A DNA stretch of 64,000 bases from Myxococcaceae bacterium JPH2 (GTDB lineage: Bacteria; Myxococcota; Myxococcia; Myxococcales; Myxococcaceae): NCBI GenBank assembly GCA_016458225.1, contig JAEMGR010000012.1:124001-188000 (forward strand), written 5' to 3'. Both the position numbers and the translations under genes were made by a program. This document shows positions 34,701 to 53,450 of the stretch, piece after piece. The notes beneath the pieces are model-generated. The model ran no database searches. It saw nothing but the letters and a program-made list of their open reading frames with translations, and was not told the origin of the DNA. Each line of letters begins with the position of its first letter. Within the stretch, counting starts at the first letter, position 1.

Positions 34701-35209
34701 GCGTAGGTGTAGTTGAAGCCTCCGTCCGAGTCGCCCAGCAGCAGCGGGCCGCTCACCACCGAGGTCCCTCCGTCACCTCCCGCCTGCGCCAGGACGCCAC
34801 CATCGGCGTTGGGCACGCCGCCATCCGGGCCCGCGTTGGCCGCGGCGATCTCCTGGGGCAGCGGGCCCGCGTCGGACGTGTCGACGGGGATGTTCGCGCT
34901 GGGGATGGGCTTGCTGTCCGCTGGCGGCGCGATCGGCGGGGTGGCGTCGCTCGACTTCGTCGCGATGGGGGCCGCGGCTTTGCTCGCATCCTGGGGGGCC
35001 CCAGGCTGATCATGCGCGGTGTGCTCCGGGGGCTTGGCGAGTCCCTCCGCGTCCGGGCCCACGAGGATGTCCACGTGGCGCCAGGCGAGATCGAACGTGT
35101 TGACGGGGGTCTTGCCCGCCTGACGGGGGATGACGAACACCTGGGCGGCGGCCACCCCCGGAAGGAGGAGGGCCAGCAGCAAGGCGGTCAGGCTGGAACG
35201 GGGGTTCAC
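31709..35209 (-). CDS. Gluzincin protease / beta-propeller / outer-membrane barrel fusion protein
   Basis: The 1166-residue product starts at GTG 35209 behind GAGGTG and has a signal peptide (LTALLLALLLPGVAAAQV). After a Pro/Ala/Asp-rich linker (60-165) comes a metalloprotease module: SSHELTHQFTI with zinc ligands His269 and His273, and FIEGLAEFYAKRG with Glu307 as third ligand (peptidase-MA type). A TolB/WD40-like propeller follows (about 440-760; AVYSPAFSPDERYLAFIGID, TWGPTGIIYTSDATSHRKYN). The last 350 residues are a surface-antigen barrel (FGFAGAGGGGFVGQVFASAT, FDTLRGVNFGDERW, LRLHFARPFDINAAAG). It is probably anchored in the outer membrane with the protease facing the periplasm; orientation and substrate are inferred or unknown. 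Confidence 0.85.
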   Translation of the reverse strand: MNPRSSLTALLLALLLPGVAAAQVFVIPRQAGKTPVNTFDLAWRHVDILVGPDAEGLAKPPEHTAHDQPGAPQDASKAAAPIATKSSDATPPIAPPADSKPIPSANIPVDTSDAGPLPQEIAAANAGPDGGVPNADGGVLAQAGGDGGTSVVSGPLLLGDSDGGFNYTYAKTLGAKTGGVRFYFYEREREVAERAVPVIEEAYRYLVGRFKYVPTQTFPYILYNSYAEFLQTNVFPVSEGTLGVTSTEDLKLTLPYLGDHRLFEEISSHELTHQFTIQKVRTVAEQAKVFGDPLSNMPLWFIEGLAEFYAKRGLDPETEMLVRDLLVNPDLMKGYAFLDFFSPGPYGYLWIYKVGQTRVAFLEDEYGDGISQRILEESPRLVGGSRDSPSLKFEELLERLTGDDPKRLAARFENWLKRRAFKTYLGSEQSAPALDSLSDLPGIVTAMASGPDGYVLAVRTIIPETGESRLYLLDPRMPEKTVQVAADGQPGIESLHPVSGRNFAVGKDKLAFVAEVTGRDVLYVQDYGHSAEKHATDVLVRRSAIRTGIDRDPSLAVKLETGGRRAVRIDKQGIVAVYSPAFSPDERYLAFIGIDDKGLRDVYMVDLAAGDKAAPRKLTDDVFAERQLTWGPTGIIYTSDATSHRKYNLFRIKPDAPGPAERLTSEDRDEADPVALPDGRIFFVAYTHSSSDLHERLPDGRLVRRTDLTTGVFEPGPGPEGSLWMLFHLSGERRPSLLRPPRMLALEEEKEPPAEPPGPLAIRPLTDAQQYRPFARQNLEFGPIFGFAGAGGGGFVGQVFASATDRLRNHQMILTLAVYGSFELTDGLLLYVNDEKRATWGGGLFQSLRFRVDQTFKDVNKDLFFTSAERYFGVLGSYRYPLSTFLYLQGDLSLGGTKYFLDDPVEFYLAFPERNEANQALLGEWRAKNQAIRFQTELSGRLGYDSIKYHYATGPLSGSSVLMEATVGVQPFNDEAYSNVRLDAERYFPIYGRTNIFARLGTGTTLGGRYARSYYLSSFDTLRGVNFGDERWLLGRHFVYSTVEMQLPLNDIIRVAFLSDLEAIVAMDTGGVGDGAKDLWDHRVLNAVVGFNVSLGPLLLRLHFARPFDINAAAGKPDPGWVTNFSLGIAGLNGFFDQRDTGRQAPPVNRASLPALGGGYLTPGVP

Positions 35210-35391
35210 GAAGGCACCTCTGGGGTAGAGGAGACAGGCGTATCGACGGCTTGGGAGAAGGCTCGCTCGCCTCCTCGGAACGTACAAGCGGCTCGATTGT
35301 TTCTTTGCGTTACGGTGTACGTCCAGCGGGCCGGCTTGCTCGGCTTGACGGGACTTTCGTTGGGTCGGCCCGCCCGGTATGGATGGGGGTC

Positions 35392-38161: not shown

Positions 38162-39793
38162 TCAGATGTTGATGCGCAGGCCCACGCCCAGGTCGAACGT
38201 GGGGGCAGGCACGGAGGTCTGCTTCAAGATGACCTCCGACTGCTGGGTCTCCGGATTGAAGCGGCGGATCTCCGGCAGATCCATCGCGAGTCGGAACGTG
38301 CCGCCCTTCTGGCCGTAGTACACCGAGCCGTAGGCCTCCACCGTGAGGTAGGAGAGCGCGCGATGCACCACGTTCAACCGCGTGGTGAAGGAGCGGTCGG
38401 ACAGGTTGCCGAGCGTGAACAGGTTGAACGTCGTCTTGTCCAGGGACCCCGGCTGGGCCAGCAGCACGTAGAGCGCCGCGTAGTGCCGAGCCGCGTAGAA
38501 CGGATCGAACTGGTTGACGAACAGCAGGTACGGATACGCCTCGCGAGTGGTGTAGCCGGTGGAGTTGTAGAAGTACTCCACGCCCACCACGGCGGTGTCG
38601 TTCTCCGAATAGGCAAACGTGTGGTTCGCGCCCAGGGTCGCCTGGGGCGTGAGTCCCGTCGGCGTGTCCTCGGTGATGAGGCCGAGGTTGCCGCTGCTCA
38701 GCACGTCATGAACGGAGACGCCATCGGGCAACTTGTAGACCGGCAAGTCAGACCCGCGCTTGAGCGCGAGTTCACCGTACATGTCGATAGGGCCTACCGC
38801 CGACGACACGTCGATGCCGAGCCGCGTCTTGCGCCCCTTCTGCGCCACCGCGCTGACGCCCACCTCGGCGGGGCCGAACACGGCTTCCGCGCGCAGCGCG
38901 CCACCAATCTTGCCCAGGCTGTCCGCCGGCCCCGCGTTGTCCAGCATCGCGATGCCGTAGAAGTTCCAGCCCTTGGACTCCCAGGGCACGTGCACCTTGA
39001 TCATGGACGCGCCGGTGCGCAGGTCCACGAAGGCCAGCGGATCCCTGCGCTGTGGCGACAGGAAGTCGGTGGGATTCCAGATGGTGCCCGTGCCCCACTT
39101 CACGTGCTGCTTGCCCACGGTGAGGAACACCGTGCGCTCGATGTCGAAGCGCAGCCACGCTTGATCCAACAGCACGCGCGGATTCGCCGCCGCCGCGCCG
39201 GAGAGCGACAAGGCGCTGCCGCCCGTGGCCGTGGCGCCCGAGGGCCGGGTGGGGTCGTAGCTCAACCGGCCCACCACCATGCCGCGCAGCCGCTCGGTGG
39301 GGCGGGCATCGAAATACCCATCCACCAACGTGGGCGCGGTGAGGCTCGTATCGGAGAACGAGCGCCCCGCCGCGCCAGACGCGCTGGCGCGCAGGTAGAA
39401 CTGACCGCCAATCTTCAGCGGATCATCCGTGGACTCCGCGGTATCGAACGCGTTGCGGGCGGCGCCCCCAGACAGCGATGCCGCGTCGCGATCCACCAGG
39501 TCCGGCGACTGCGCGGACCCGGTCCGATCCGGCGCCGAGTCCGAGCCATTCGTATCCGCGGGCGCTGCCGCGGCCTCGGCGGGGGACGCCGAATTGCCTC
39601 CCGACCCTGCTCCAAAGAGGTTGTCCTCGGAGGGGCGAGCGTCGGAAGAGGTCGCGGCCGGAGCGGGCGCCGGCGCGTCGCCGCCGAACAGCGCGCTCTC
39701 ATCCGGCCGAGACGCCGGCTCCTGGGCCTGCGCGCCCACGTGCGCGAGCACCAGGGCCAGCGCGGTGGCCCTGCCAAGGGTGCGGGAGCTCAT
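38162..39793 (-). CDS. Outer-membrane barrel/porin of the export operon (DUF1302-like)
   Basis: The 543-residue product has a signal peptide (LGRATALALVLAHVGAQAQ), then a disordered, Ala/Pro/Ser/Asp-rich segment with a repeated DESALFGGDAP / SEDNLFGAGSG motif, and from about 110 a large barrel: GQFYLRASASGAAGRSFSDT, DQAWLRFDIERTVFLTVGKQ, HVKWGTGTIWNPTDFLSPQR. The 'GKQHVKWGTGTIWNPTDFL' block is typical of DUF1302-like outer-membrane proteins that accompany LolA-like carriers and lipid exporters. The C-terminus ends in I (GVGLRINI). It overlaps the LolA-like gene by 4 bp (ATGA), so the two are translationally coupled and likely act as one pathway. Confidence 0.8.
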   Translation of the reverse strand: MSSRTLGRATALALVLAHVGAQAQEPASRPDESALFGGDAPAPAPAATSSDARPSEDNLFGAGSGGNSASPAEAAAAPADTNGSDSAPDRTGSAQSPDLVDRDAASLSGGAARNAFDTAESTDDPLKIGGQFYLRASASGAAGRSFSDTSLTAPTLVDGYFDARPTERLRGMVVGRLSYDPTRPSGATATGGSALSLSGAAAANPRVLLDQAWLRFDIERTVFLTVGKQHVKWGTGTIWNPTDFLSPQRRDPLAFVDLRTGASMIKVHVPWESKGWNFYGIAMLDNAGPADSLGKIGGALRAEAVFGPAEVGVSAVAQKGRKTRLGIDVSSAVGPIDMYGELALKRGSDLPVYKLPDGVSVHDVLSSGNLGLITEDTPTGLTPQATLGANHTFAYSENDTAVVGVEYFYNSTGYTTREAYPYLLFVNQFDPFYAARHYAALYVLLAQPGSLDKTTFNLFTLGNLSDRSFTTRLNVVHRALSYLTVEAYGSVYYGQKGGTFRLAMDLPEIRRFNPETQQSEVILKQTSVPAPTFDLGVGLRINI

Positions 39794-40572
39794 CGGCTCT
39801 TGCTCTCGAGCCAGGCCTTGGTGAAGAGGTTCGCCTCCAGCGAGTGGAGGTCCACGCTCTTGATGGCGATGACGGTGGAGTTGGCCTTCTCCACCTCGTC
39901 ATAGATGCGAATCTGGTCCGGGAACCACACGTCGGCGTTCTTGGACTCGCTGAACAGCTTGCGCCACGTCGGATAGTACAGCGTGCGCATCAGCCGGCCG
40001 GACAGCGCGAACTCCTGGCGCTTGAGGATGTTGCCCGAGTCCATGTCCACCCACAGCTCCACCATGGGGTAGGCCACATCGACGTTGGCCTTCGCCTTGA
40101 GGATGAGGTGGTGGACCTTGTACTTGCCGAGCGTCTCCTCGCCCTTGTCCGAGGGGTCGAACTCCTCGGCCAGACGAGACTCGTCGAAGTCGGCGCGGCG
40201 GCTGTCGGTGCCCGCAATGCGCTCGCGCTCCGTGCGCCGCTCCCACTTGCCCACGTTGGGGTCGTAGCTCCAGAGGTTCTTGTCCAGCCGCAGGTAGCCC
40301 TTGCCGGCCTCTCCCTTGGGCTTGGAGAAGAGGATCATCAGCTTGTCGTCCGCGTCGCGCCGGTACACCCACGCCTCGCGGGCCACGTCTGTCTTGTCCT
40401 TCTCCTTCTGCTCCAAATAGACGAGCGCCTTGTAGTCGCCGCCATTGCGCTGCCGGTCATCAATGACCTGCAGCATCTTCGTCATCGTGGGCGTGTCCAG
40501 AGCGGACGCCACGCGGGCGGACAGCAGCGCCGCGGCCACCACCGCGGCGGACAGCAGTTTCGAGAGCGACAT
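39790..40572 (-). CDS. LolA-like outer-membrane lipoprotein-sorting protein
   Basis: The 260-residue product has a signal peptide (SKLLSAAVVAAALLSARVAS) and the half-barrel of the LolA/LolB superfamily: GDYKALVYLEQKEKDKTDVA, REAWVYRRDADDKLMILFSK, YLRLDKNLWSYDPNVGKWER, VELWVDMDSGNILKRQEFAL. It matches the 'outer membrane lipoprotein-sorting protein' group found next to FtsX permeases rather than canonical LolA. In the periplasm it would pick up a lipid or lipoprotein from the ABC transporter encoded just upstream (5-bp gap) and pass it to the barrel encoded downstream. The substrate is unknown. Confidence 0.85.
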   Translation of the reverse strand: MSLSKLLSAAVVAAALLSARVASALDTPTMTKMLQVIDDRQRNGGDYKALVYLEQKEKDKTDVAREAWVYRRDADDKLMILFSKPKGEAGKGYLRLDKNLWSYDPNVGKWERRTERERIAGTDSRRADFDESRLAEEFDPSDKGEETLGKYKVHHLILKAKANVDVAYPMVELWVDMDSGNILKRQEFALSGRLMRTLYYPTWRKLFSESKNADVWFPDQIRIYDEVEKANSTVIAIKSVDLHSLEANLFTKAWLESKSR

Positions 40573-43988: not shown

Positions 43989-44729
43989 CTAGTGGCCCCC
44001 GCCAGCGGCCATGGCGCGCTGGGCTTCCGCGGAGGAGATCCGGTCGAGGATCTTCCCGTCCGCCAATCGCACGACGGCGTTCGCGTGGTTCATCACCTTC
44101 GCGTCGTGGGTGGAGAAGATGAAGGTGGTGCCTTCCTTCTGGTTCAGCTCCTTCATCAGGTCGATGATGTGCTGGCCCGTCACCGAGTCCAGGTTGGCCG
44201 TCGGCTCGTCCGCGAGCACGAGCTGCGGCCGGGTGACGAGCGCGCGCGCCACGGCGACACGCTGGCGCTGACCGCCGGACAGCTCGTTGGGGCGGTGCTT
44301 CGCGTGCTGCGCGAGCCCGACCTGCTCGAGCAGTTGCATCACGCGGTCCTTGCGCTCGGCCTTGTTCAGCTTGCGCTGCAGGAGCAGCGGGAACTCCACG
44401 TTCTGGAAGACGCTCAGCACCGACACCAGGTTGAAGCTCTGGAAGATGAACCCGATGGTGTGGAGCCGCAGGTTCGTCAGCTCCTTCTCCGTCAGCTTCT
44501 TGGTGTCCTGGCCCGCCACGCTCACCACGCCCGCGGTGGCCGTGTCCACGCAGCCAATGAGGTTCAGCAGCGTCGTCTTTCCGCTACCCGAGGGGCCCGC
44601 GATGGAGATGAACTCCCCGGGGAACACCTGCAGGTCCACGCCCCGCAGCGCGGGAACCACCACCTTCCCCAGGCTGTAGTCCTTCGTGACATCGGCGATG
44701 GAAACAATGGGGGACTGTCCGGCGTTCAT
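43989..44729 (-). CDS. LolD/MacB-type ABC transporter ATPase
   Basis: The 246-residue product has Walker A GPSGSGKTT, Q-loop FQSFNLVSVLSVFQNVEFPL, signature LSGGQRQRVAVARALV, Walker B VLADEPTANLDSVTG and H-loop STHDAKVM. The IGFIFQSFNL and NVEFPLLL segments are typical for the LolD/MacB/FtsE group that works with FtsX-fold permeases by mechanotransmission. The start ATG 44729 is behind AAAGGA and overlaps the regulator stop by 4 bp. It powers the two permeases encoded immediately downstream. Confidence 0.95.
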   Translation of the reverse strand: MNAGQSPIVSIADVTKDYSLGKVVVPALRGVDLQVFPGEFISIAGPSGSGKTTLLNLIGCVDTATAGVVSVAGQDTKKLTEKELTNLRLHTIGFIFQSFNLVSVLSVFQNVEFPLLLQRKLNKAERKDRVMQLLEQVGLAQHAKHRPNELSGGQRQRVAVARALVTRPQLVLADEPTANLDSVTGQHIIDLMKELNQKEGTTFIFSTHDAKVMNHANAVVRLADGKILDRISSAEAQRAMAAGGGH

Positions 44730-45202
44730 GACGTACGTCCTTTCGAGGCCTTCCCGCGAGTGGCGCGCCACCGCTCGGAAATGCCGGCCATCTCGGCCAG
44801 GTAGAATTCTCCAAAGTCATAGGCCTCGCGCACATGCGGCTTGTCGCCCAGCGCGGGGTTCTCCAGGGCTTCCTTGCACAGGCGGATGAAGCGCTTGAGG
44901 GACTCCTCCGCGCTGCGCATCCGCGTCTCCCAGCCCTGGGTGCTGATGACGTAGTAGTGCTTGCGGTCTCCGGGCACGCTCACCGGCTCCACCAGCCCCG
45001 CGGCCAGGCACTGGCGAATGTTGGTGGAGACCGACGCGGGGCTCACCTTGAGGAGCCGCCCGATGCGGTCCAGCGACAACGGCTCGTCCGCGAGCATCAG
45101 CAAGCCATGGATGCGCCCGGCGATGCGCGTGGCACCTTGCGACTCGAAGTGCAGCCCCATGGCCTCGACCAAGCGTTGCTCAGCCGCCTTCAACTGCTGC
45201 AT
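44726..45202 (-). CDS. GbsR/MarR-family transcriptional regulator of the export operon
   Basis: The 158-residue product starts with ERLVEAMGLHFESQGATRIA, then GRIHGLLMLADEPLSLDRIG and RLLKVSPASVSTNIRQCLAA, a winged helix-turn-helix; the wing is VEPVSVPGDRKHYYVISTQG. This is the GbsR subfamily of MarR-like repressors. A C-terminal helix pair would dimerise and bind ligand. It is the first gene of the operon and overlaps the ATPase gene by 4 bp. The 34-bp inverted repeat 56 bp upstream is the expected autoregulatory operator. The inducer is unknown but probably the transported molecule or an envelope signal. Confidence 0.9.
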   Translation of the reverse strand: MQQLKAAEQRLVEAMGLHFESQGATRIAGRIHGLLMLADEPLSLDRIGRLLKVSPASVSTNIRQCLAAGLVEPVSVPGDRKHYYVISTQGWETRMRSAEESLKRFIRLCKEALENPALGDKPHVREAYDFGEFYLAEMAGISERWRATRGKASKGRTS

Positions 45203-45248
45203 GTCGCCTCCGAGCCGCCCCTCGCGTCACTCAACGTCGAGGTCGGCA

Positions 45249-45275
45249 TTTATTGAGTTCAGTTCGTTCAGTCAA
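45249..45275 (-). promoter_or_regulatory. Promoter of the GbsR/export operon
   Basis: On the minus strand TTGACT (complement of 45270-45275) and AATAAA (complement of 45249-45254) are spaced by 15 bp. The -35 lies at the centre of the inverted repeat, so a bound repressor would block polymerase. Confidence 0.5.
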
Positions 45276-45291
45276 GACTGAATGAACTGAA
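45258..45291. promoter_or_regulatory. 34-bp operator upstream of the GbsR-type gene
   Basis: TTCAGTTCGTTCAGTC (45258-45273) and GACTGAATGAACTGAA (45276-45291) are inverted copies with one mismatch around AA. Each arm itself holds two TTCAGT-like half-sites 9 bp apart, giving four half-sites in total. It overlaps the operon promoter and is markedly AT-richer than its surroundings. Confidence 0.75.
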
Positions 45292-45328
45292 CGCCGTGTC
45301 ACGAAGGCGTGAACGGCGGACATTCGAA

Positions 45329-45359
45329 GCCCCTCGTCTCCAGAGCGAAGACGAGGGGC
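45329..45359 (-). terminator. Terminator of the Gly/Ser-rich secreted protein gene
   Basis: A perfect 11-bp stem (GCCCCTCGTCT 45329-45339 with AGACGAGGGGC 45349-45359) and 9-nt loop lie 31 bp after the stop of the gene at 45391. There is no U-tract. Confidence 0.65.
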
Positions 45360-45390
45360 CGGAAGTGCGGCGCGCGGCGTGAGCGAACCG

Positions 45391-46047
45391 CTAGTACGTG
45401 TCGGGCGAGGCCGAGGAGCCCGACTTCGTGTCGGGGTTCATGCCCTTGTCCTTGGTGGAGCCACCGGTGCCCTGGTCCTCGGGCGAGGTGCCCATCCCGG
45501 AGCCACCGGTGCCAGGGTGAACGGAGGAATCGGGCGAGGTGCCCTCCGGGGTGCTGGAGCCACCGGTGCCGGTGCTCGGCGCGCTGCTGGGCGCAATGCT
45601 CTTGGCCACGTTCTTGGTGTCCTTCACCTCGAAGCTGGCGCGGATCTCCTGGCCTTCCTTCAGGTTCTTGGCGGCCTTGAGGCTCGGGTCGGTGAACTGC
45701 GTCTTGCTGTCCACCTCGAGCGGGACGACGGCGCCCATGTGGTCCACCCAGACCATCTTGCTGTTCGCCTTGACGACCTTGCCGGTCAGCTCCTGCTGGC
45801 CCATCGAATCCCGAGTCATGCTGCTGGCGCTGCCCGCGCTGCCGCTGCCGCCCTGATCCATGGAGCCCGACGACGACGAGGTCCCGGACGCGCCCTGCAT
45901 GCTGTCCGAGCCCGCCGCGCCAGAGCCGCCTTGCGCCGCGCCGGAGGTCTGCTGCCGCGCGTCCTGGCTGGCGCTGTCTCCCTGCGCCAGCGCCGCGCCC
46001 GAGCCCAACATGGTCATCGATACGAACACCCCAACCAGCTTCTTCAT
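45391..46047 (-). CDS. Secreted Gly/Ser-rich protein with DUF5666-like domain
   Basis: The 218-residue product starts at ATG 46047 behind GGAGG and has a Sec signal (KKLVGVFVSMTMLGSGAALA). Residues 25-80 are Gly/Ser/Gln-rich and disordered. A small beta domain follows at about 85-150 (LTGKVVKANSKMVWVDHMGA, VVPLEVDSKTQFTDPS, EGQEIRASFEVKDTKNVAKS), like the OB-type DUF5666 repeat found in envelope proteins. The tail is again disordered and Gly/Ser/Thr/Pro-rich. It is a single leftward gene between the export operon and the secretion cluster. Function unknown. Confidence 0.7.
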   Translation of the reverse strand: MKKLVGVFVSMTMLGSGAALAQGDSASQDARQQTSGAAQGGSGAAGSDSMQGASGTSSSSGSMDQGGSGSAGSASSMTRDSMGQQELTGKVVKANSKMVWVDHMGAVVPLEVDSKTQFTDPSLKAAKNLKEGQEIRASFEVKDTKNVAKSIAPSSAPSTGTGGSSTPEGTSPDSSVHPGTGGSGMGTSPEDQGTGGSTKDKGMNPDTKSGSSASPDTY

Positions 46048-46348
46048 GGAAAGCCTCCTCGTGATGACATGGGACGGGAGGGGGGCGTGGGCCCCCCGCC
46101 AGATCGAGGGGGGCGTGGGCCCCCGCCACGTCAAAACTAGGTGCGGGGGCTTGCGGGCACAGCCCCCGAGCGCCCGGGTCGCGCGTCCGCCCCCACACCG
46201 GGCCACGGGCCAGGGGCCCGGCGTGCGTGTCGGCGAGTCGAACGCAGGCGCCTGGGTGGCTTGATGCGGACAGGGCTTTCCCCTACCGTTCGCAAGACGT
46301 GCATTCCCGGCCTCTTGGCCGGCACCTTGCCAGGAGACCGTTCCCGCG
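46048..46348. other. Intergenic region between divergent genes
   Basis: No gene is supported in this 301-bp gap. It contains a 23-bp direct repeat with a 28-bp period (A-GGGGGG-CGTGGG-C5/6-GCCA at 46079-46101 and 46107-46128). Each copy can fold on itself through its G and C runs. Promoters for both flanking genes should be here but none stands out. Confidence 0.6.
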
Positions 46349-46621
46349 ATGCCCCCGCCCGCCAAGCCGTCGCCCGCCCCGGAGCTGCCGGTTCCGTCCT
46401 ATCCCGCCATCGAGTCGTACATCGAGCGGGCCACCCCGGAGGAGGTCGGCGCCTTCTTCGGCTCGGTGAAGACGTCCCTCACGGACCTCAAGGGCCCGCG
46501 CGCCGAGCAGGGCAAGAAAGTCCAGGCTGCGATCGCCCGCTCCGAGGAGCTGCTCAGCATGCTCGTGGACGTCCGCGAGCGCCTCGTGGCGGAATCGAAG
46601 GGCGGTAAAGGCAGGAAATGA
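46349..46621 (+). CDS. Small helical protein at the left edge of the secretion cluster
   Basis: The 90-residue product starts at ATG 46349, 12 bp after AGGAGA. A Pro-rich N-terminus (PPPAKPSPAPELPVPSYPAI) leads into two amphipathic helices (ESYIERATPEEVGAFFGSVK; GKKVQAAIARSEELLSMLVD) and a basic tail. It has the size and helix-hairpin form of type III chaperones or export-apparatus accessory proteins, but I see no family signature. A hairpin terminator follows, so it is probably transcribed apart from the cluster genes. Confidence 0.6.
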   Translation: MPPPAKPSPAPELPVPSYPAIESYIERATPEEVGAFFGSVKTSLTDLKGPRAEQGKKVQAAIARSEELLSMLVDVRERLVAESKGGKGRK

Positions 46622-46630
46622 CTGAGGGTC

Positions 46631-46657
46631 GGGTGAGTCAGGCCACTTTTCTCACCC
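46631..46657 (+). terminator. Hairpin after the small helical protein gene
   Basis: GGGTGAG (46631-46637) pairs perfectly with CTCACCC (46651-46657) over a 13-nt loop, 10 bp after the stop codon. It separates this gene from the sigma-28-like element at 46685. Confidence 0.45.
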
Positions 46658-46684
46658 GCACCAAGCAACCCGAGAATCCCTCGG

Positions 46685-46694
46685 ACCGATAATC
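46685..46694 (+). promoter_or_regulatory. Sigma-28-like -10 element ACCGATAATC
   Basis: ACCGATAA differs by one base from the FliA -10 consensus GCCGATAA. It lies 66 bp before the rod/needle-like gene at 46761. The -35 position (15 bp upstream) reads CAAC, a poor match to TAAA. The same GATA[A/G]TC core occurs before two other cluster genes. Confidence 0.5.
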
Positions 46695-46760
46695 AGAAAA
46701 GAGCCATTGGATCATCCAGCGGCTCCCGGTTTTCGCTGGCACCAGCGCGTGGAGGCAGTG

Positions 46761-47324
46761 ATGAGCGTGAAGATTGACGGCGGTATGATGGGCCCCAGCA
46801 ACATGCGTCTCAACACCCAGATGACGACGGCGCGTCAGACCCCGAACACCACCTTCGGCGCTCGGGTTCAGTCGGGCCTGAACAACGCGGCGGGTGCGGT
46901 GGGCGCGGGTGTGGGCGCGGTGGCCGGAATGGTTCCCGGCGGCAGCATCGTTTCGGCGGCGGTTTCGTCCGCGCAGACGTTCTCCGGCAGCGCCGGCTCG
47001 GGTATCGCGGGCGGTCCGTACGCGGGCACCATGAGCGCGGGCGCGGGCTCGGCGTCGCTGCTGGCCGGCGCGGGCGCGGTGGCGTCCACCAACGTGGGCG
47101 GCTCCACGGGCAGCCCCAGCACGCTGGGCACCAGCGGCGTGGGCGGCAGCGTCGGTGACCAGGTCAACGGCAACTTCAGCCTGGGCCAGATGCAGAACGA
47201 CAACGTGAAGCTGCTGAACCTGCAGGCTGCGATGCAGCACGAGTCGCAGGTGTTCACGGCGGTTTCCAACGTGATGAAGTCGCGGCACGATACGATCAAG
47301 AACTCGATCGGCAACGTCCGCTAG
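46761..47324 (+). CDS. Rod/needle-like protein with Gly/Ala-rich extension
   Basis: The 187-residue product starts at ATG 46761, 5 bp after GGAGG. Residues 35-140 are extremely rich in Gly, Ala, Ser and Val (AGAVGAGVGAVAGMVPGGSI, SGSAGSGIAGGPYAGTMSAG) and have no charged residues for long stretches. The last 37 residues (151-187) form an amphipathic helix, LLNLQAAMQHESQVFTAVSN then VMKSRHDTIKNSIGNVR. It aligns without gaps to the C-termini of the SctI protein (48984) and the 73-residue protein (63609). No signal peptide is present, as expected for type III substrates. It is probably exported and polymerises through its C-terminal helix (inference). A TPR chaperone gene follows. Confidence 0.75.
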   Translation: MSVKIDGGMMGPSNMRLNTQMTTARQTPNTTFGARVQSGLNNAAGAVGAGVGAVAGMVPGGSIVSAAVSSAQTFSGSAGSGIAGGPYAGTMSAGAGSASLLAGAGAVASTNVGGSTGSPSTLGTSGVGGSVGDQVNGNFSLGQMQNDNVKLLNLQAAMQHESQVFTAVSNVMKSRHDTIKNSIGNVR

Positions 47325-47352
47325 CATCCCACGCTGGCGGCGACTGACCGGA

Positions 47353-47387
47353 GCAAGGAGGGCGGCCACGACGGCCGCCTTCCGTGC
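47353..47387 (+). terminator. Strong hairpin after the rod/needle-like gene
   Basis: GCAAGGAGGGCGGCC (47353-47367) folds with GGCCGCCTTCCGTGC (47373-47387) with one mismatch and one G-T pair, 29 bp after the stop. It lacks a U-tract and may act as a partial terminator that lets the first gene be expressed more than those behind it. Confidence 0.5.
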
Positions 47388-47419
47388 TTCCGGCCCTTGG
47401 AAAGGAAGCGCGGCGTCCC

Positions 47420-47851
47420 ATGGCGGAGACCTCGGAGATCTCGAACAGCTTCGTCCCCCTCACGCGCCAGCAGGCCATGGTGCTGTTGGAGTCGGGCTAC
47501 CTGTGGCTGGACATGGGCCACTACGACAAGGCGCGGGAGCTGTTCGCGGGCGCCGCCGTCCTGATGCCGCGCAGCGAGGTTCCCCAGATTGGCCTGGGCG
47601 CGGTGGAGTTCGCGCAGGGCAAGCATGACAAGGCCCTCCAGGCGTACCGCGCGGCCCAGCGGCTCGCGCCGCACTCCGCGCTGCCGCGCGCCCACGCCGG
47701 CGAGGCGCTCCTCTTCATGGGGAAGGTGCCCGAGGCGCTCAAGGAGCTGAAGTCCGCCATGGATCTGGATCCGGAAGGCGACGGCGGTCGTCTGGCCCAG
47801 GCGCTCATCCAGGCCAAGGACGCGGGGGCCCTGCCTCCGCCCAAGAAGTAA
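47420..47851 (+). CDS. TPR protein, probable type III chaperone
   Basis: The 143-residue product starts at ATG 47420 behind GGAAAGGAAG. It contains three tetratricopeptide repeats (VLLESGYLWLDMGHYDKARE, QIGLGAVEFAQGKHDKALQA, RAHAGEALLFMGKVPEALKE) and little else, the size and form of LcrH/SycD and PscG/YscG chaperones that hold translocator or needle subunits in the cytoplasm. Its position directly after the rod/needle-like gene suggests it protects that product (inference). It is followed by the FlgM-like candidate gene 12 bp downstream. Confidence 0.75.
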   Translation: MAETSEISNSFVPLTRQQAMVLLESGYLWLDMGHYDKARELFAGAAVLMPRSEVPQIGLGAVEFAQGKHDKALQAYRAAQRLAPHSALPRAHAGEALLFMGKVPEALKELKSAMDLDPEGDGGRLAQALIQAKDAGALPPPKK

Positions 47852-47863
47852 AGGGGTGCGCTG

Positions 47864-48259
47864 ATGGCTGTCGGTGGCGTCGGACGTGGGGGTGGAAAAG
47901 GCCGCGCGGGTGGCGCGAAGGGGGCGTCCGGCGGCGCACCCGCGGCGGGCGCGTCCTTCGGCGCCAAGGTGGACCGCGCGGAGTCTCTTGTCGGGCCCTC
48001 AGGTCTGGTAGGCTCCAGCAACGTTCAGGGCCCCCAGCCCATGGATCCGATCGCGGCGCAGGCGTTCGCCATCGCCCGGCGGCTGAAGAACGGGGGCTTC
48101 AAGAACAAGGAAGAGGCGACGAAGGCGCTCGTCTCCGAGGTGCTTGAGGAGAAACTGCGCATGAAGTCCGACGCCTTGACGAGCCGGATCGCGGATGCGT
48201 TGCAGGATGATCCCCGGCTGAACCAGGTTCTCGAGCGGCTGTGGTCCAAGGCCGAGTGA
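47864..48259 (+). CDS. Candidate anti-sigma-28 (FlgM-like) protein
   Basis: The 131-residue product starts at ATG 47864. The first 55 residues are Gly/Ala-rich and disordered, and the C-terminal half is helical. A segment RRLKNGGFKNKEEATKALVS then EVLEE follows the FlgM pattern of x-N-G-x-x-K, about 5-6 residues, A-x-x-L-[I/V]-x-E. Like FlgM it is small, N-terminally disordered and encoded immediately before a FliA-type sigma gene (9-bp gap). Similarity is short and found by eye only, so the call is a proposal. It could instead be an unrelated export substrate. Confidence 0.4.
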   Translation: MAVGGVGRGGGKGRAGGAKGASGGAPAAGASFGAKVDRAESLVGPSGLVGSSNVQGPQPMDPIAAQAFAIARRLKNGGFKNKEEATKALVSEVLEEKLRMKSDALTSRIADALQDDPRLNQVLERLWSKAE

Positions 48260-48268
48260 GCGCTCCGC

Positions 48269-49102
48269 TTGCCTCTGGGTGAAGACAGGAAGGTCATCCT
48301 GGAGAAGTACGGGCCCTACGTACGGTCGCTCGCGGCGACCGTGCGCAAGCAGTTCAGCGCCCAGCTCGAGCTGGATGAACTGATGGCCTACGGACAGATT
48401 GGCCTGCTGGAGGCCGCCGAGCGCTTCGACGCGAAGGTGGGCGCCAACTTCCTCACCTTTGCCCACTACCGCATCAAGGGCGCCATCTTCGACGGCCTGA
48501 GGAAGATGGGGGTGTTGCGGGGCGCGGACGCGCGCACGGCGTACCAAGGGGAGCGGGCGGCGGCCTATCTGGGAAATCTTTCCGATCGCGAGCAGGGCGC
48601 AAGCAACCGCGGCACCTCATTTGACGATGATGTCAGTGACATCTCGAATGCTGTCGCGGGCCTGGCCCTGGTTTTCGCTGCGGGTCAGGATGGGGCGGAG
48701 GCGGCGGGGTATGTGGATGAGTCTCTTCCGGCGGATCAGCGGATGGAGGCCGAGCAACTGAAGAACCGGGTCCGCTCGGCCATCGAGAAGCTGCCGGAGA
48801 AGGAGCGCAAGCTCCTGCAGGGGTATTACTTCCAGGGCCGTACACTGGAAGAAGCGGGCGCGGAGATTGGGCAATCGAAGAGCTGGGCGTCGCGGCTTCA
48901 TGCGCGCGCCATTGATAAGCTCAAGGAACTTTTGACCGAGGAAGAGGAACTCCCTCCCTCGGCGGATGCAAGGAGGGTGTCACATGGCGGCTCCGATGAG
49001 CGGCATCTCCGCGGGTCAGGTAGCGCAGCAAAAGCTGCAGGACCAGGGCGCGCAGCAGACGAACAAGCAGGGCGCCTCGAAGTTCGACGGAGTTCTCGCT
49101 AA
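48269..49102 (+). CDS. FliA/sigma-28-type RNA polymerase sigma factor
   Basis: The 277-residue product starts at TTG 48269; an in-frame stop at 48257 leaves no earlier start. Region 2 (LDELMAYGQIGLLEAAERFD, FAHYRIKGAIFDGLRKMG) and region 4 (LPEKERKLLQGYYFQGRTLE, EAGAEIGQSKSWASRLHARA) are those of FliA/WhiG factors, with a spacer region 3 between that is partly acidic. FliA directs late flagellar genes and is held by FlgM until the export machine is complete. Finding one inside a non-flagellar type III cluster suggests checkpoint control of late substrates. The last 40 codons run through the start of sctI (119-bp overlap). Confidence 0.88.
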   Translation: MPLGEDRKVILEKYGPYVRSLAATVRKQFSAQLELDELMAYGQIGLLEAAERFDAKVGANFLTFAHYRIKGAIFDGLRKMGVLRGADARTAYQGERAAAYLGNLSDREQGASNRGTSFDDDVSDISNAVAGLALVFAAGQDGAEAAGYVDESLPADQRMEAEQLKNRVRSAIEKLPEKERKLLQGYYFQGRTLEEAGAEIGQSKSWASRLHARAIDKLKELLTEEEELPPSADARRVSHGGSDERHLRGSGSAAKAAGPGRAADEQAGRLEVRRSSR

Positions 49103-49550
49103 CAAGGCCCAGGGCGCGGGGCAGGTGGACGCGGCCCAGGGCGTGAACAAGGCCCAGGCGGCTCAGGCCACGCAGCGCGCGGATGCCGTGCGCCAGGTGG
49201 AGACCGTCAACAAGACGGAGAAGGCCGGCCTGAACAAGGTCAGCGGCGCGGCGCAGGAGCCGGCGACCGCTCGCGGCGCCGAGGCCGTGGACGCCAAGTC
49301 CGAGACGGCGAAGGCCGGCACGTCGCGCGGCGGCGAGATGATGTCGAAGATGGTGGGTGACCTGGAGAAGGGTCAGCTCAACCTCGAGAAGCTCATCAGC
49401 CAGGCCGGCTCCGGCAAGAACTTCTCCAACGGCGAGCTGCTGTCGCTCCAGGCGTCCATGTACAAGTACTCCCAGGAGATGGACCTGACCTCCAAGGTCG
49501 TGGAGAAGGCCACCAGCGGCCTGAAGGACGTCGTCAAGACGCAGGTCTGA
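48984..49550 (+). CDS. sctI: Type III inner rod protein SctI-like
   Basis: The 188-residue product starts at ATG 48984 behind AGGAGGG. The N-terminal 130 residues are Ala/Gln/Lys-rich and low in hydrophobics (AQKLQDQGAQQ-like stretches). The C-terminus has GKNFSNGELLSLQASMYKYS then QEMDLTSKVVEKATSGLKDV, the LLxLQ...SKVVxKxTSGLxxLxxxQ pattern of SctI/YscI/PrgJ. SctI forms the short helical rod connecting export gate and needle. Standard SctI proteins are 80-140 residues, so the long N-terminal extension is unusual. It has no signal peptide. A hairpin terminator separates it from sctJ. Confidence 0.82.
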   Translation: MAAPMSGISAGQVAQQKLQDQGAQQTNKQGASKFDGVLANKAQGAGQVDAAQGVNKAQAAQATQRADAVRQVETVNKTEKAGLNKVSGAAQEPATARGAEAVDAKSETAKAGTSRGGEMMSKMVGDLEKGQLNLEKLISQAGSGKNFSNGELLSLQASMYKYSQEMDLTSKVVEKATSGLKDVVKTQV

Positions 49551-49583
49551 GTCATCCACCCGCCGGTCCCTGGCGGAAGCGAA

Positions 49584-49624
49584 GGGCGGTCCCTCGGACA
49601 CGAGGGGTCGCCCTTCCGCGTTTT
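49584..49624 (+). terminator. Intrinsic terminator between sctI and sctJ
   Basis: GGGCG (49584-49588) with CGCCC (49609-49613) and CCCTCG (49591-49596) with CGAGGG (49601-49606) form a stem with a small internal loop and a GACA tetraloop. TT and TTTT (49621-49624) follow, the best U-rich tail seen in the window. Confidence 0.6.
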
Positions 49625-49653
49625 CCAGGGCGCCTGTAAGCTACGTTCCGCCC

Positions 49654-50469
49654 ATGAATCGCCGACCGTCCGCGTTTGCCGCGCCGCTCCTCGCCTTGCT
49701 GTTCGTCACGGGTTGCTCCATCGAGCTTCAGCATGAGCTGAACGAGGCGGACGCCAACGAGATCTACGTCCTGCTCAGCAAGAACGGCATCAACGCCAAG
49801 AAGGAGAAGGAGGAGGGAGGCAACGAAGTCCGGTTCATGATCACCGTGCCCAAGACGGACGCGGCGCAGGCCGCGGAGCTGCTCAAGCTCAACTCGTTGC
49901 CTCGGCCGGTGGAGAAGGGCCTGTCTCACTTCGCCAAGGGCAGCATGGTGCCCACCGCCACGGAGGAGCGCGCGATGCTCCTCAAGGCCATGGGCGGCGA
50001 GGTCTCCAACGCGCTCAACCAGATCGACGGCGTGCTGGAAGCGCGGGCCATCGTGATGGTGCCGGAGAACAACGACCTCACCCAGCCGGAGAACCGACCC
50101 ATGCCGTCGGCTTCCGTGTTCATCAAGTACCGGCCCGGAGATGGCGGCAAGCCGCCCATCGAGCCGACCGCGGTCAAGCAGTTCGTGGCCACCGCGGTGC
50201 CGGAGATGAAGCCGGACGCGGTGACGGTGCTGATGACGCAGGCGTTGCCGCCGGCGGCGGAGACGGACTCGGAGAGCCGGCTTCAGGACGTGCTGGGCCT
50301 GCGCATGACGGCCTCCAGCGCGGGGACGTTCAAGATGATGATGGGCGGGGCCTTCCTGCTCGTCCTGGCGATGCTGGGCCTCACGGCGTGGACCTTCATG
50401 CGCGGAGGCGCGAGCGCCGCTCCCGCCGCGCGGCCGGCTCGGGGTCGCGGCCGTCCTCCGGAGGGATGA
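49654..50469 (+). CDS. sctJ: Type III inner-membrane ring lipoprotein SctJ
   Basis: The 271-residue product has a lipoprotein signal (LLALLFVTGC, Cys21), the two YscJ/FliF ring-building domains (IELQHELNEADANEIYVLLS, GINAKKEKEEGGNEVRFMIT; then GEVSNALNQIDGVLEARAIV and PMPSASVFIKYRPGDGGKPP) and one transmembrane helix near residues 228-250 (MMMGGAFLLVLAMLGLTAWT). It oligomerises into the inner-membrane ring around the export gate. The length matches injectisome SctJ (about 250) rather than the 550-residue FliF. No SctD partner is in the window. Confidence 0.93.
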   Translation: MNRRPSAFAAPLLALLFVTGCSIELQHELNEADANEIYVLLSKNGINAKKEKEEGGNEVRFMITVPKTDAAQAAELLKLNSLPRPVEKGLSHFAKGSMVPTATEERAMLLKAMGGEVSNALNQIDGVLEARAIVMVPENNDLTQPENRPMPSASVFIKYRPGDGGKPPIEPTAVKQFVATAVPEMKPDAVTVLMTQALPPAAETDSESRLQDVLGLRMTASSAGTFKMMMGGAFLLVLAMLGLTAWTFMRGGASAAPAARPARGRGRPPEG

Positions 50470-50561
50470 CGCGAGCCCTTCCGCCGGGCACCCACCGCGG
50501 CTCCTTCCCGAGCCGCATCTCCCCCCTCCAGCGGGCTCCAGCCGGGCCCGCGAGGTGACCG

Positions 50562-52754
50562 TTGGACACGTTCTTCACCTCGCTCAACAAGCGCCAGACG
50601 ATGCTCTTGCTGACCGCCGTCACGTTCGGTGGACAGGAGAGCCTGTCGGCGCTGGAGCATCTCCCGGAGGAGGAGGGGGACCTCTTGCGCCATCGCGCGC
50701 AGGAACTCCTCCAGGTCCCCCGTGAGAAGCGCCTCCCGGCGCTGGTGCAGGAGATCAAGCGGCTGGTGAAGGACCGCCGAGGCCAGCTCTGGAGCGCGGA
50801 TCCGGAGCGGGTGGCGGCGCTGCTCCAGCGCGAACGAGGCGCCCTGGCCGAGGTGGTGCTGCGCGCGCTGCCGGGCTCGGTGGCGGAGGCCGTTCGTTCT
50901 CACCTGCCGCCGTCTCGCGTGAAGCTCACGCGGGAGATCCGGCCGCAGGTCCTCGACATCGTCCGGTGGAAGCTCGAGGAGGTCCTGGCCCGGCAATCGG
51001 GAGGGGCCGCCGCGGCGGGCTTCAAGTTCGTGGACGTGTTGCTGCTCCAGACGCGCGAACTCCTGACGGTGAGTGATCGGCTCGGGGCCCGTGTGCTGGG
51101 GCCCGCCCTCGCGGGCTTGCCCGATGGCGAGCGCGACGGGGCCATCGAGCAGTTGCCTCCAGACCTGCGCGTGCTCGCGACCAAGTCCGTGGCCGCCAAT
51201 GCCCCGCGCAAGCTCCCCGAGGAGGAATCGCGGGCGCAGCTCGATGCGCATGGAGGCGTGACGAGCCTGGCGAGTGCCATCCGCAGCGCGGGTGTCCAGC
51301 GCGTCGCGCGCGCGTGTGTGGCTCAGAACCCCGAGTTCGCCGCGCGCATGTTGGAGAAGCATCGCGGAGAGTTCGGGCAGTTGCTCGCGCGCTGGGTTCG
51401 TGAGGAGCGCTCGCGTCCGACGGCGCGTGGAGATGGCGGACGCACGGACATCGTGATGGACCTGGAGCGGCTCGTGACGCGTGGCCTCATCGAGCGCCCC
51501 GTGCGGCTCACGGCGCCGCCTCCGCGGCCCATCGCTGTCCTTCCTCCTCCTCCCGGTGCACGCAAGCCCGCGGCCGCTGCTCCGCGTGCGGAGGCTCCTC
51601 GCGCGGAGGCTCCTGGGCCTGCTCCTGCGCGTCCCGCGTCAGCTGCTCCTGGGGGCGATGCGGAGCGTGGGGCCAGCGCCGTGGCACGAGGGCCGGGTGG
51701 AGCCCTGCGCGCACCCGCTGGGGCGTTGCGAGGCCCGGCGGGGGCCCTGCGGCCGCCTTCCGCCCAGCGTGGCGGAGGCGCGCGCGGTGGTGAGGCCGCG
51801 AGCGGCGCGGAAGGCGAGCCTCGCCGTGACTTCATGGCCGAGCGCGCCGCGCGCCGAGCCGGAGCTGCTTCGTTCCGCCCAGGACGTCCTGAGGGCGAGG
51901 CGGATGAGGCGCGCCCGCGCCCGTCGGCGGATCGTGGCTCGGCGGTCTCGGCGATGCCGCGCCCCGCGGGCGAGGGCGCGGCGGATGGCTCGCGGGTGCG
52001 TCGGCCCCCGCCTCCCGAGCGAGGCTCGGCGGTCTCCTCGATGCCCCGACAGGACGACGCGGAGGGCTCGCGGGTGCGGCGTCCTCTCCCGGAGCGGGGC
52101 TCGGCGGTATCGGCGATGCCTCGACCGGAGGGCGAAGGCGCGGCGGATGGTTCTCGCGTGCGTCGTCCTCCGCCTCCCGAGCGGGGCTCGGCGGTATCGG
52201 CGATGCCTCGGCCGGAGGGCGAAGGGGCGGCGGATGGCTCGCGCGTGCGTCGTCCTCCGCCGCCTGATCGAGGTTCGTCGATAGGCCCTCCGCCTCGCCG
52301 CGAGCCGCCGTCTCGTGAGGGGCGCGCCGCTCGACCGGATCCCGATGGCGCTCGCATCGGCCCGCCGCCGTCTCGGCTTGGCGCCGCGCGGGGGGCTCCT
52401 CCCAGTCGTGAAGAGGGAGCGGAGTCTCGAGTCGGGCGACCGGGTCGTCCCAGTGCGGCCGACGCCGGCTCTCGCGTCCAGCGGCGTCCGGATGCGCCGG
52501 CTCCCGAGGGCGATCCAGATGGCTCGCGGGTGTTCCGCTCGCGCAGCGGCTCTCGCCCCGTGGCGCGCCCGGCGGAGGAGCCCGAGCGGCCGCCTCGGGT
52601 GGTGGCGGGGCGCTCCGCCACGTCGGCGTCCATGGCGGCGCTTCGTCCGGGTCACGAGGGGACCTCGGTGGGGAGGCGCCGCGGGAGTTCGGGAGTCGAG
52701 CGGCCGGGACCTCCGCCTCCAGGAGGGCGTGGACCGCGCGGCGGAACGCGCTAG
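50562..52754 (+). CDS. FliG-slot protein with FliG-N-like region and Arg/Pro repeat tail
   Basis: The 730-residue product starts at TTG 50562 behind GAGGTGA. Residues 1-60 (KRQTMLLLTAVTFGGQESLS, ALEHLPEEEGDLLRHRAQEL) and 75-140 (DPERVAALLQRERGALAEVV, LRALPGSVAEAVRSHLPPSR) resemble FliG N/M-domain helices: L-L-L...L-x-H-L-x-E-E-E and A-A-L-L...V-L-x-x-L-P. The gene sits between sctJ (FliF) and sctL (FliH), exactly where fliG stands in flagellar operons and sctK in injectisomes. Residues 340-730 are a disordered Pro/Arg/Ala/Gly tail with four long repeats. No torque-helix motif is evident, so a role as cytoplasmic adaptor or sorting platform part is more likely than rotation (inference). Confidence 0.65.
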   Translation: MDTFFTSLNKRQTMLLLTAVTFGGQESLSALEHLPEEEGDLLRHRAQELLQVPREKRLPALVQEIKRLVKDRRGQLWSADPERVAALLQRERGALAEVVLRALPGSVAEAVRSHLPPSRVKLTREIRPQVLDIVRWKLEEVLARQSGGAAAAGFKFVDVLLLQTRELLTVSDRLGARVLGPALAGLPDGERDGAIEQLPPDLRVLATKSVAANAPRKLPEEESRAQLDAHGGVTSLASAIRSAGVQRVARACVAQNPEFAARMLEKHRGEFGQLLARWVREERSRPTARGDGGRTDIVMDLERLVTRGLIERPVRLTAPPPRPIAVLPPPPGARKPAAAAPRAEAPRAEAPGPAPARPASAAPGGDAERGASAVARGPGGALRAPAGALRGPAGALRPPSAQRGGGARGGEAASGAEGEPRRDFMAERAARRAGAASFRPGRPEGEADEARPRPSADRGSAVSAMPRPAGEGAADGSRVRRPPPPERGSAVSSMPRQDDAEGSRVRRPLPERGSAVSAMPRPEGEGAADGSRVRRPPPPERGSAVSAMPRPEGEGAADGSRVRRPPPPDRGSSIGPPPRREPPSREGRAARPDPDGARIGPPPSRLGAARGAPPSREEGAESRVGRPGRPSAADAGSRVQRRPDAPAPEGDPDGSRVFRSRSGSRPVARPAEEPERPPRVVAGRSATSASMAALRPGHEGTSVGRRRGSSGVERPGPPPPGGRGPRGGTR
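51933..52268 (+). repeat. Four tandem 75-87-bp repeats in the FliG-slot gene
   Basis: Units at 51933-52019, 52020-52094, 52095-52181 and 52182-52268 encode 29, 25, 29 and 29 residues that each start RGSAVS and carry GSRVRRP. Units 3 and 4 are almost identical in DNA, so expansion looks recent. The encoded tail is basic and disordered. Confidence 0.8.
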
Positions 52755-52778
52755 CATCCACCCCCCAAGGAGCAGCCC

Positions 52779-53450
52779 ATGGCGATCGGCAAGGTAATCA
52801 AGGGGGATGGGACCGCGGAGCCGGCCATTCCGGCGGAGCGGCCCGTGCTGCGTCCGCCCCGCGCCGGCGTGATGAACGCCGAGGTCTTCGAGGCCCGCCA
52901 GGGCGCGCATGGCATCCTGGAAGATGCCCAGCGCGAGAAGGAGCGCATCCTCGCGGAGGCCCAGCGCGAGCGCGAGGAGACGATCGCTCGGGCTCGGGAG
53001 CAGGGCCGCCAGGAGGGGCTCGCCCAGGCCTCGGAGATCATCCTCCGCGCGAAGATGCAGGCCGGGGAGATCCTCGCCTCGCACGAGCGGGACGTCATCG
53101 AGCTGGCGCTCAAGGTGGCCCAGAAGATTCTCGGCCGCGACCTGGAGCGCGACCCGGACCTGCTGGTGGACATGTGCGCGTCCGCCATCGACAACCTGCG
53201 CAACGCCCGCTCCATGGTCCTGCGCGTCCACCCCAAGACGGCGGCCGTGCTGCGCGCCAAGAAGCCGGTGCTGATGGAGCTCATCGGCCGCGCGGTGGAC
53301 CTGGCCATCAAGGAGGACCAGGAGGTCGCTCCGGTGGGCTGCATCGTCCAGACGGAGTTCGGCACGGTGGACGCGCAGCTGCCCACCCAGTTCGAGATGC
53401 TCCAGAACATCCTCCTGCCGGACTCGGCCAAGAAGGAAGGGCCGGCCTAG
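52779..53450 (+). CDS. sctL: Type III ATPase stator SctL (FliH-like)
   Basis: The 223-residue product starts at ATG 52779 behind AAGGAG. After a Pro-rich N-terminus there is a long charged helix (LEDAQREKERILAEAQRERE, ETIARAREQGRQEGLAQASE) and then the globular FliH/SctL domain (VIELALKVAQKILGRDLERD, ALRAKKPV-like segment, VGCIVQTEFGTVDAQLPTQF). SctL dimers bind the N-terminus of SctN and link it to the SctQ ring, regulating ATP hydrolysis. The QREREE-type heptads are typical. The gene is 19 bp ahead of sctN. Confidence 0.93.
   Translation: MAIGKVIKGDGTAEPAIPAERPVLRPPRAGVMNAEVFEARQGAHGILEDAQREKERILAEAQREREETIARAREQGRQEGLAQASEIILRAKMQAGEILASHERDVIELALKVAQKILGRDLERDPDLLVDMCASAIDNLRNARSMVLRVHPKTAAVLRAKKPVLMELIGRAVDLAIKEDQEVAPVGCIVQTEFGTVDAQLPTQFEMLQNILLPDSAKKEGPA

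Follow-up and report, generated by a model that had tools for sequence, protein, structure and literature searches.

A four-half-site palindrome over the promoter of a GbsR/MarR-type regulator: a predicted operator of an envelope export operon in Myxococcaceae, with its core found in at least six bacterial phyla

Introduction

The closest described systems are GbsR-type repressors of Bacillus and Alishewanella. The dimeric GbsR of Bacillus subtilis binds an inverted repeat that has four bp between its half-sites, and works as a roadblock; OpcR sits over the -35 element with a half-site spacing different from that of GbsR (PMC7396694). OpuAR of B. infantis is a dimer in solution (PMC6207618), and CioR represses its own cio operon (PMC11837568). 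The footprint of the GbsR-type repressor CydE lies over TTTCAGAAATTTCTGAAA, with the same TTCAG-N6-CTGAA geometry as the core studied here (PMC6096048). A 2018 survey of GbsR proteins describes cyd, betaine synthesis, Opu uptake and a few importers as genomic contexts, and leaves 73 of 179 proteins without assignable context (PMC6207618); hence, context is not a defining feature of the GbsR family.

Here we analyse 64,000 nucleotides of Myxococcaceae bacterium JPH2 (assembly GCA_016458225.1, contig JAEMGR010000012.1, positions 124,001 to 188,000), referred to as the window. It encodes a GbsR-type regulator outside the surveyed context classes, its neighbours being exporters. The terms exporter, RND, multidrug, Myxo- and Chloroflex- do not occur in the main text of the survey (PMC6207618). 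In the open-access papers searched we found neither the four-half-site layout nor an export-linked GbsR group, and no reports on GbsR or on LolA-like/FtsX proteins in Myxococcus; the operator motif strings gave unrelated matches only.

Results

The palindrome and its half-sites

The full palindrome spans window positions 45257-45292. It is 36 bp long, with arms of 17 nt and a spacer of 2 nt, and reads GTTCAGTTCATTCAGTCTTGACTGAACGAACTGAAC on the minus strand, from 45292 down to 45257. The arms pair at 16 of 17 positions (94% complementary) with one mismatch. The first-pass annotation of this DNA placed a 34-bp palindrome at 45249-45291; the palindrome is real and its sequence agrees with the one quoted, but that interval begins 8 nt early and the 34-mer omits the outermost G/C pair. 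The four half-sites, two per arm and 9 bp apart, can be read from the sequence as claimed there, and over 37 clusters of relatives the outer half-sites peak at the same 9-bp step. The inner half-sites on the minus strand are TTCAGT (45282-45277) and ACTGAA (45272-45267), and together they form the core TTCAGTCTTGACTGAA. Their centres are 10 bp apart, which is usual for a winged-helix dimer, while the 9-bp step sets adjacent half-sites slightly less than one helical turn apart, a point against the reading proposed below. Coordinates of all features are given in Table 1.

Table 1. Features of the operator region, the operon and its neighbourhood (window coordinates).
Feature	Position	Strand	Basis and remarks
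36-bp palindromic operator (predicted), four half-sites	45257..45292		Sequence, inverted-repeat search, shuffles; single copy
Core operator (predicted), inner half-site pair, 4-bp spacer	45267..45282	-	Upstream of family orthologs and distant relatives
Outer half-site TTCAGT, 9 bp before inner	45286..45291	-	Sequence; offset 9 is the left maximum over 37 clusters
Outer half-site ACTGAA, 9 bp after inner	45258..45263	-	Sequence; offset 9 is the right maximum over 37 clusters
-35 element TTGACT inside operator	45270..45275	-	TTGAC kept even where it breaks the palindrome
-10 element TAAATG, 17-nt spacer	45247..45252	-	Aligned TA at same spacing in 29/37 clusters; poor by consensus
Perfect 11-bp GC-rich hairpin	45329..45359		Inverted-repeat search; between operator and upstream gene
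GbsR/MarR-type regulator, 158 aa (P0001)	44726..45202	-	MarR_2 above cut-off; PDB 4nb5, 5jbr, 1ku9
LolD/MacB-type ABC ATPase	43989..44729	-	Pfam/NCBIfam; start overlaps regulator stop (ATGA)
FtsX-type permease, 700 aa	41883..43985	-	Pfam
FtsX/MacB_PCD permease, 433 aa	40578..41879	-	Pfam
LolA_like periplasmic carrier	39790..40572	-	Pfam; start picked by eye from the ORF
543-aa protein, sixth gene of conserved set	38162..39793	-	No Pfam match
TPR protein	47384-47851	+	Among type III secretion-like genes
Sigma-70 family factor	48269-49102	+	Among type III secretion-like genes
YscI	48966-49550	+	Type III secretion-like; below cut-off
YscJ/FliF protein	49654-50469	+	Type III secretion-like
FliH/SctL stator	52779-53450	+	Type III secretion-like

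With at least 16 of 17 positions paired and a spacer of 0-20 nt, the window holds this one place, and 60 dinucleotide shuffles of the window yield one match in total (mean 0.017). By itself the symmetry is unusual, not extreme; conservation is the stronger evidence for the palindrome. The whole genome (8,994,968 bases, or 9.0 Mb, in 144 contigs) has no second place for the 26-base pattern GTTCAGTnnGTTCAGTnnnnACTGAA at up to 3 mismatches. A genome scan for the motif had been proposed as a way to a regulon. Run here, it brings up no good second site: the half-palindrome with 3 mismatches allowed finds this site alone, the core with 3 mismatches finds one weak additional place, and the arm repeat with 1 mismatch finds both arms of the site and 6 scattered others versus 7 for the backward control. 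We reject a wider regulon in this genome, as the three patterns give no convincing further sites.

The GC-rich hairpin that separates operator and upstream gene may, judging by its position, be the terminator of that gene; terminator prediction made no call near operator or hairpin. A GC-rich hairpin of differing sequence stands at a similar position in many family loci.

The promoter over the operator

The -35 element TTGACT (45275-45270) sits just past the dyad, in keeping with its proposed place at the operator centre, and the start codon ATG of the regulator at 45202 lies downstream of the -10 element. A plain sigma-70 consensus scan of 45100-45450 detects no promoter, presumably because the -10 element TAAATG is poor, so the promoter call in the window rests on the comparison of relatives. 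There, TA stands at the 17-nt spacer in 29 of 37 clusters, and in 0-5 clusters at spacers 14-16 and 18-21. In the family alignment TTGACT-17-TAnn is steady, and TTGAC is retained even where the opposing base (A for C) spoils the pairing, which argues for a promoter role of its own. The comparison across relatives thus supports the proposal that the palindrome is a predicted operator lying over the promoter of the GbsR/MarR-type gene.

The regulator

The regulator scores 32.1 bits against MarR_2 of Pfam (cut-off 27) and is matched by sequence to PDB entries 1ku9 (E 9.4e-8), 4nb5 and 5jbr. Its AlphaFold model (pLDDT 94.2) has helices, two strands and two long C-terminal helices. The fold search returns the same entries over nearly the whole chain: 4nb5 with Z 16.6, 1ku9 (Mj223) with Z 16.3 and 5jbr with Z 15.9, with VIA alignments of 143, 144 and 138 residues, respectively. 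The next matches listed have Z of 10.8 or below, many of them covering the winged helix alone. Judged by this model, the protein is a member of the GbsR family, with an N-terminal winged helix and C-terminal dimerisation helices like those of Mj223. The inverted repeat TTCAGT-N4-ACTGAA, with 4 bp between half-sites, also has the form of a GbsR-family operator. Binding and repression by a homodimer are predicted, and the position of the operator over the -35 element fits this. The choline regulator CudC (NCBIfam NF047500) was considered and rejected at 37.2 bits versus a curated cut-off of 218; the protein is related to CudC but is not CudC. The recognition-helix stretch around SVSTN does not separate carriers of the operator from non-carriers, so we draw no covariation claim from it.

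The operon and its neighbourhood

The regulator heads a six-gene operon on the minus strand, whose genes are joined by ATGA overlaps or few-base gaps. The 543-aa product of the last gene is a probable outer-membrane barrel. By tblastn the six genes occur in identical order in 14 loci, namely in Citreicoccus inhibens (L082), Myxococcus and Pyxidicoccus (L083, L085-L093), Archangium (L094, L095) and a MAG (L096); locus L084 ends too early for this comparison. The record of L090 is titled Comamonas sp. KCTC 72670 and holds a Myxococcus-type operon; it seems to be mislabelled.

On the other side of the operator, 45391-46048 of the minus strand encodes a protein rich in Ser and Gly. Its start resembles a signal peptide, repeated TGGS stretches can be seen by eye, and neither Pfam nor NCBIfam gives a match. 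Beyond this neighbour begins a set of type III secretion-like genes (46349-53450, plus strand). The 1192-aa protein encoded at 31709-35287 (minus) weakly matches M61-like peptidases and PD40 propellers, at scores barely over the cut-off.

Conservation in Myxococcaceae

We searched 96 genomes of the family with the regulator protein and with TTCAGTnTTGACTGAA at up to 1 mismatch. A strong ortholog was defined by E of 1.5e-28 or lower, the next-best match being at 3e-13. All 40 genomes with a strong ortholog carry the core (39 exactly, 1 with one mismatch). It shares contig and strand with the ortholog and lies 42-99 bp before the matched part of the gene. The remaining 56 genomes, many of them with weaker GbsR-like matches, contain no exact core and 2 one-mismatch matches with no GbsR match near. 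The association of exact cores with strong orthologs has a Fisher p of 3e-26, computed over related, not independent, genomes.

In the aligned family sites the core is almost fixed and the outer half-sites are variable. TTCAC is paired with GTGAA in locus L006, and TCAG with CTGA in Archangium types; the right outer half-site is lost in the M. xanthus group and the left one in Hyalangium-type loci. With the outer pair half lost in these groups, two-dimer occupancy may not be general.

Four half-sites across relatives

For a wider comparison we took the 89 sites that have the gene, 67 of them exact, 16 with one and 6 with two mismatches, and grouped them into 37 clusters at 60% protein identity; among these, L193 and L194 look near-identical in DNA, and one cluster is the reversed site of L207. 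On the right flank, agreement with ACTGAA at the 9-bp step is 3.95 of 6 positions, versus a mean of 1.52 and a maximum of 2.65 at the other offsets; for TTCAGT on the left flank the corresponding values are 3.68 of 6, 1.48 and 2.14. None of 5000 flank shuffles reaches the score of the 9-bp step on either side, and the result also holds in the 33 clusters outside the family. These maxima make the four-half-site reading a general feature.

The outer half-site is kept at 4 of 6 or better on the left in 20 clusters, on the right in 28, on both sides in 17 and on either side in 31 of the 37. The inner half-sites average 5.8 and 5.9 of 6, scores that are partly forced, the core having been the criterion for choosing sites. 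When loci are fetched by protein alone, the inner pair is again kept and the outer one is variable, pointing to a primary site for one dimer and a weaker second site.

The core beyond the family

A profile built from a 16-sequence alignment and scanned against genome contigs gave 56 loci, and in 43 of them a core of at least 12/15 lies upstream of the regulator. When nine close Myxococcaceae loci are left out, 47 relatives remain, or 48 loci with the window added. Their best core scores fall into two groups, 35 at 12-15 of 15 and 13 at 7-10, with none at 11; the reversed control pattern over the same 48 has a maximum of 11. The 13 relatives lacking the core are nine from Bacillota (L108, L109, L112, L114, L115, L117, L120, L123, L125) and L126, L130, L135 and L136. 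A further GbsR gene, this one with a one-mismatch core, is present in the genomes of both L135 and L136. In the Roseobacter MAG of L136 (6029-7429) two GbsR genes follow each other, with a one-mismatch operator before the first only.

Exact cores stand in records named Chloroflexi (L102), Roseisolibacter (Gemmatimonadota), Devosia, Arsenicitalea and Thermoanaerobaculia (Acidobacteriota), and one-mismatch cores in Trueperaceae (Deinococcota) and an Ignavibacteria MAG. Cores thus precede GbsR relatives also in Chloroflexota, Gemmatimonadota, Pseudomonadota and Acidobacteriota, and with one mismatch in Deinococcota. All told, regulators of this kind are preceded by nearly the same site in at least six bacterial phyla. 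Phylum names of MAGs are taken from record titles; those of L099 and L100 say Proteobacteria, but the genomes came from the sampled Thermanaerothrix phylum (Chloroflexota).

We also searched samples for the core regardless of the regulator. Exact cores number 5 in 200 genomes of the phylum of Roseisolibacter, 1 in 289 of the class of Devosia and 2 in 199 of the phylum of L129, each with 0 for the reversed control, and 41 in 193 Myxococcota genomes (39 of them the family sites; reversed control 1). The phylum of Thermanaerothrix, run at up to 1 mismatch, has 59 places in 53 of 350 genomes, of which 13 are exact, versus about 42 backward-control matches. Of one-mismatch cores, 16 of 52 fetched precede a GbsR gene, and no GbsR match lies within 2.2-3.0 kb of the one-mismatch sites in G018 and G050 or of the second sites in G060 and G072. 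As one-mismatch matches are mostly chance, only exact cores are used for claims of specificity outside the family.

The core is rare, and most sampled genomes outside the family do not have the site. Apart from the family and four genomes known beforehand (G098, G117, G116, G127), these scans yield 19 new exact cores, 17 of them with a GbsR gene just downstream on the same strand; at L207 the gene has the opposite orientation, and L220 has no GbsR gene. Among 69 distinct exact cores, a set that predates the scan of the phylum of L129 and comes partly from genomes chosen for having the gene, 67 are followed within 350 bp, on the same strand, by a GbsR HMM match. The exceptions are L207 and L166. 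The core of L207 (1493-1508) is reversed: it stands at a distance of 7 bp from the matched part of the GbsR gene, with its -35 element facing away from that gene. That of L166 (1501-1516, minus), in a Chloroflexales MAG, is exact, carries the promoter TTGACT-17-TATACT and precedes an alpha/beta-hydrolase gene, with no GbsR gene in 1.5 kb downstream. The same genome has GbsR genes in other places (L110, L150), and this site may be a second target there.

Transporters linked to the regulator and operator

The downstream pumps vary among LolCDE/MacB-like, ABC-2 and RND types, and regulator and operator are constant. Even within the family, Hyalangium (L097) has an RND pump and adaptor in place of the LolA-linked set, and L113 has an RND pump. 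On a regulator tree of 46 rows the checked labels are 10 MacB/LolCDE-like, 12 ABC-2 or ABC ATPase, 7 RND and 17 unlabelled; the ABC ATPase cargo is assigned to export by inference. The fewest cargo changes on this tree are 4, a rough minimum given 12 open forks among 43 inner branches, and operator presence changes 6 times. Two loci taken as RND by gene sizes were dropped, L137 for having no Pfam match and L128 for a pump 2.7 kb away; the recount with checked labels still gives 4. Outside the export theme, L131 has alcohol dehydrogenases, and an ORF 1 kb downstream at L136 encodes a periplasmic binding protein. The mechanically picked ORFs have no Pfam match at 1e-5 for both ORFs of L119 and L137 and for one each of L098, L104, L111, L132 and L134. 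These data support a regulator-operator pair that would behave as a portable unit, passed on by descent or transfer.

Discussion

We suggest with high confidence that the palindrome is the operator of the adjacent GbsR/MarR-type protein, a dimer of which would autorepress from the inner pair, with the outer pair probably serving a second dimer. What we computed is sequence, position, conservation, co-occurrence, promoter spacing, fold family and operon conservation; binding, repression, two-dimer occupancy and ligand release are the predicted steps. A dimer would occupy the inner pair TTCAGT-N4-ACTGAA, whose right half overlaps the -35 element, and would keep RNA polymerase off the promoter of the regulator's own operon. 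The set repressed in this way would comprise the regulator, the LolD-like ATPase, two FtsX permeases, the LolA-like carrier and the probable outer-membrane barrel. The outer pair, which flanks the inner one at a 9-bp step to left and right, would be a weaker second site, probably for a second dimer, making repression sharper. A ligand would free the protein from the operator, pump and repressor would both rise, and autoregulation would set the pump level. Autoregulation of the envelope export operon, put forward in the first-pass annotation, thus stays a prediction that the comparison favours. Of the tetramer or two dimers suggested there, two dimers are plausible, and the tetramer is unsupported, B. 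subtilis GbsR and B. infantis OpuAR being dimers in solution (PMC7396694, PMC6207618).

Other readings of the same site deserve weighing. It is possible, though we doubt it, that the core alone is functional, with one dimer on the inner pair and the outer repeats being extended flanking contacts, of wing or N-terminal arm, or partial leftovers. The inner half-sites score 5.8-5.9 of 6 over the 37 clusters versus 3.7-4.0 for the outer ones, a gap partly forced for the inner pair; among loci fetched by protein alone, the M. xanthus group and Hyalangium types have one of the outer half-sites degraded with the core intact; and the footprint of CydE, as described, holds one inner-type pair (PMC6096048). 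A wing contact, however, would not predict that in several phyla an identical outer hexamer recurs at a constant 9-bp step to left and right, kept at 4 of 6 or better on one side in 31 and on both in 17 of the 37 clusters. Two dimers might also overlap in register, on half-sites (1,3) and (2,4), each spanning 19 bp on different faces of the DNA, after the model of the double occupancy of DtxR or QacR. The four near-equal half-sites and symmetric layout of the window suit such an arrangement, but it expects equal constraint on all four, and in loci fetched by protein alone the inner two are near invariant while the outer two are not. Since the inner left half-site is near invariant too, though it has no promoter role, we consider overlapping registers unlikely.

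The link between site and protein is itself drawn from sequence, and the site of L166 has no adjoining GbsR gene, so another, unlinked regulator could be the one that binds. We find this very improbable: the GbsR gene is the one constant neighbour across phyla while the transporters change, and the exact site is absent from family genomes without a strong ortholog. Pairing at 16 of 17 positions would likewise allow an RNA hairpin, a terminator or a repeat element. This hardly merits belief, because the palindrome lies around the -35 element, upstream of any transcript from this promoter, receives no terminator call and is single copy in the genome, and a separate GC-rich hairpin (45329-45359) stands nearer the end of the upstream gene.

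Returning to the operator of the adjacent GbsR-type protein, a near-identical site before the same kind of regulator in at least six phyla gives it the look of an ancient off-switch that controls itself and has been joined to different export pumps. Operator sequences tend to drift from phylum to phylum; here the core, the promoter register and the step to the outer half-sites are all retained as the pump changes. We give about even credence to the broader idea of an undescribed deep module. It would be an export-associated GbsR subfamily with a four-half-site operator around the -35 element in at least six phyla, re-coupled to LolCDE/MacB-like, ABC-2 and RND exporters, with stepwise two-dimer binding and probably one shared class of membrane-active ligand. 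In practice, the 15-base signature finds the regulator gene in unannotated genomes. The site is also a convenient system for studying how one promoter might be shared by two MarR-type dimers, and an entry point to the signal that the LolA-linked envelope exporter of myxobacteria has in common with the RND pumps of Devosia.

Among known systems, CIRCE/HrcA is alike in that an inverted repeat is kept across phyla before repressor-linked operons, but it differs in protein family, sequence and heat-shock targets. Mj223 (1ku9), 4nb5 and 5jbr share nearly the full-length fold of the regulator, and the titles of these structures name no DNA complex. GbsR, OpcR and OpuAR of Bacillus are likewise MarR-type dimeric repressors, with the four-bp spacing in GbsR and the -35 overlap in OpcR (PMC7396694). 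The Bacillus sites, as described, are unlike ours in being highly A/T-rich and in controlling osmoprotectant uptake or synthesis, not export; moreover, B. subtilis GbsR acts as a roadblock downstream of the start, and the passages on its operator mention no outer pair (PMC7396694). CydE of Alishewanella differs in controlling cydAB (cytochrome bd) and in a second footprint of another sequence, with no four-half-site layout in the passages that describe it, but it is alike in binding the promoter of its own operon, where site 1 has TTTCAG/CTGAAA half-sites at the spacing of the core (PMC6096048).
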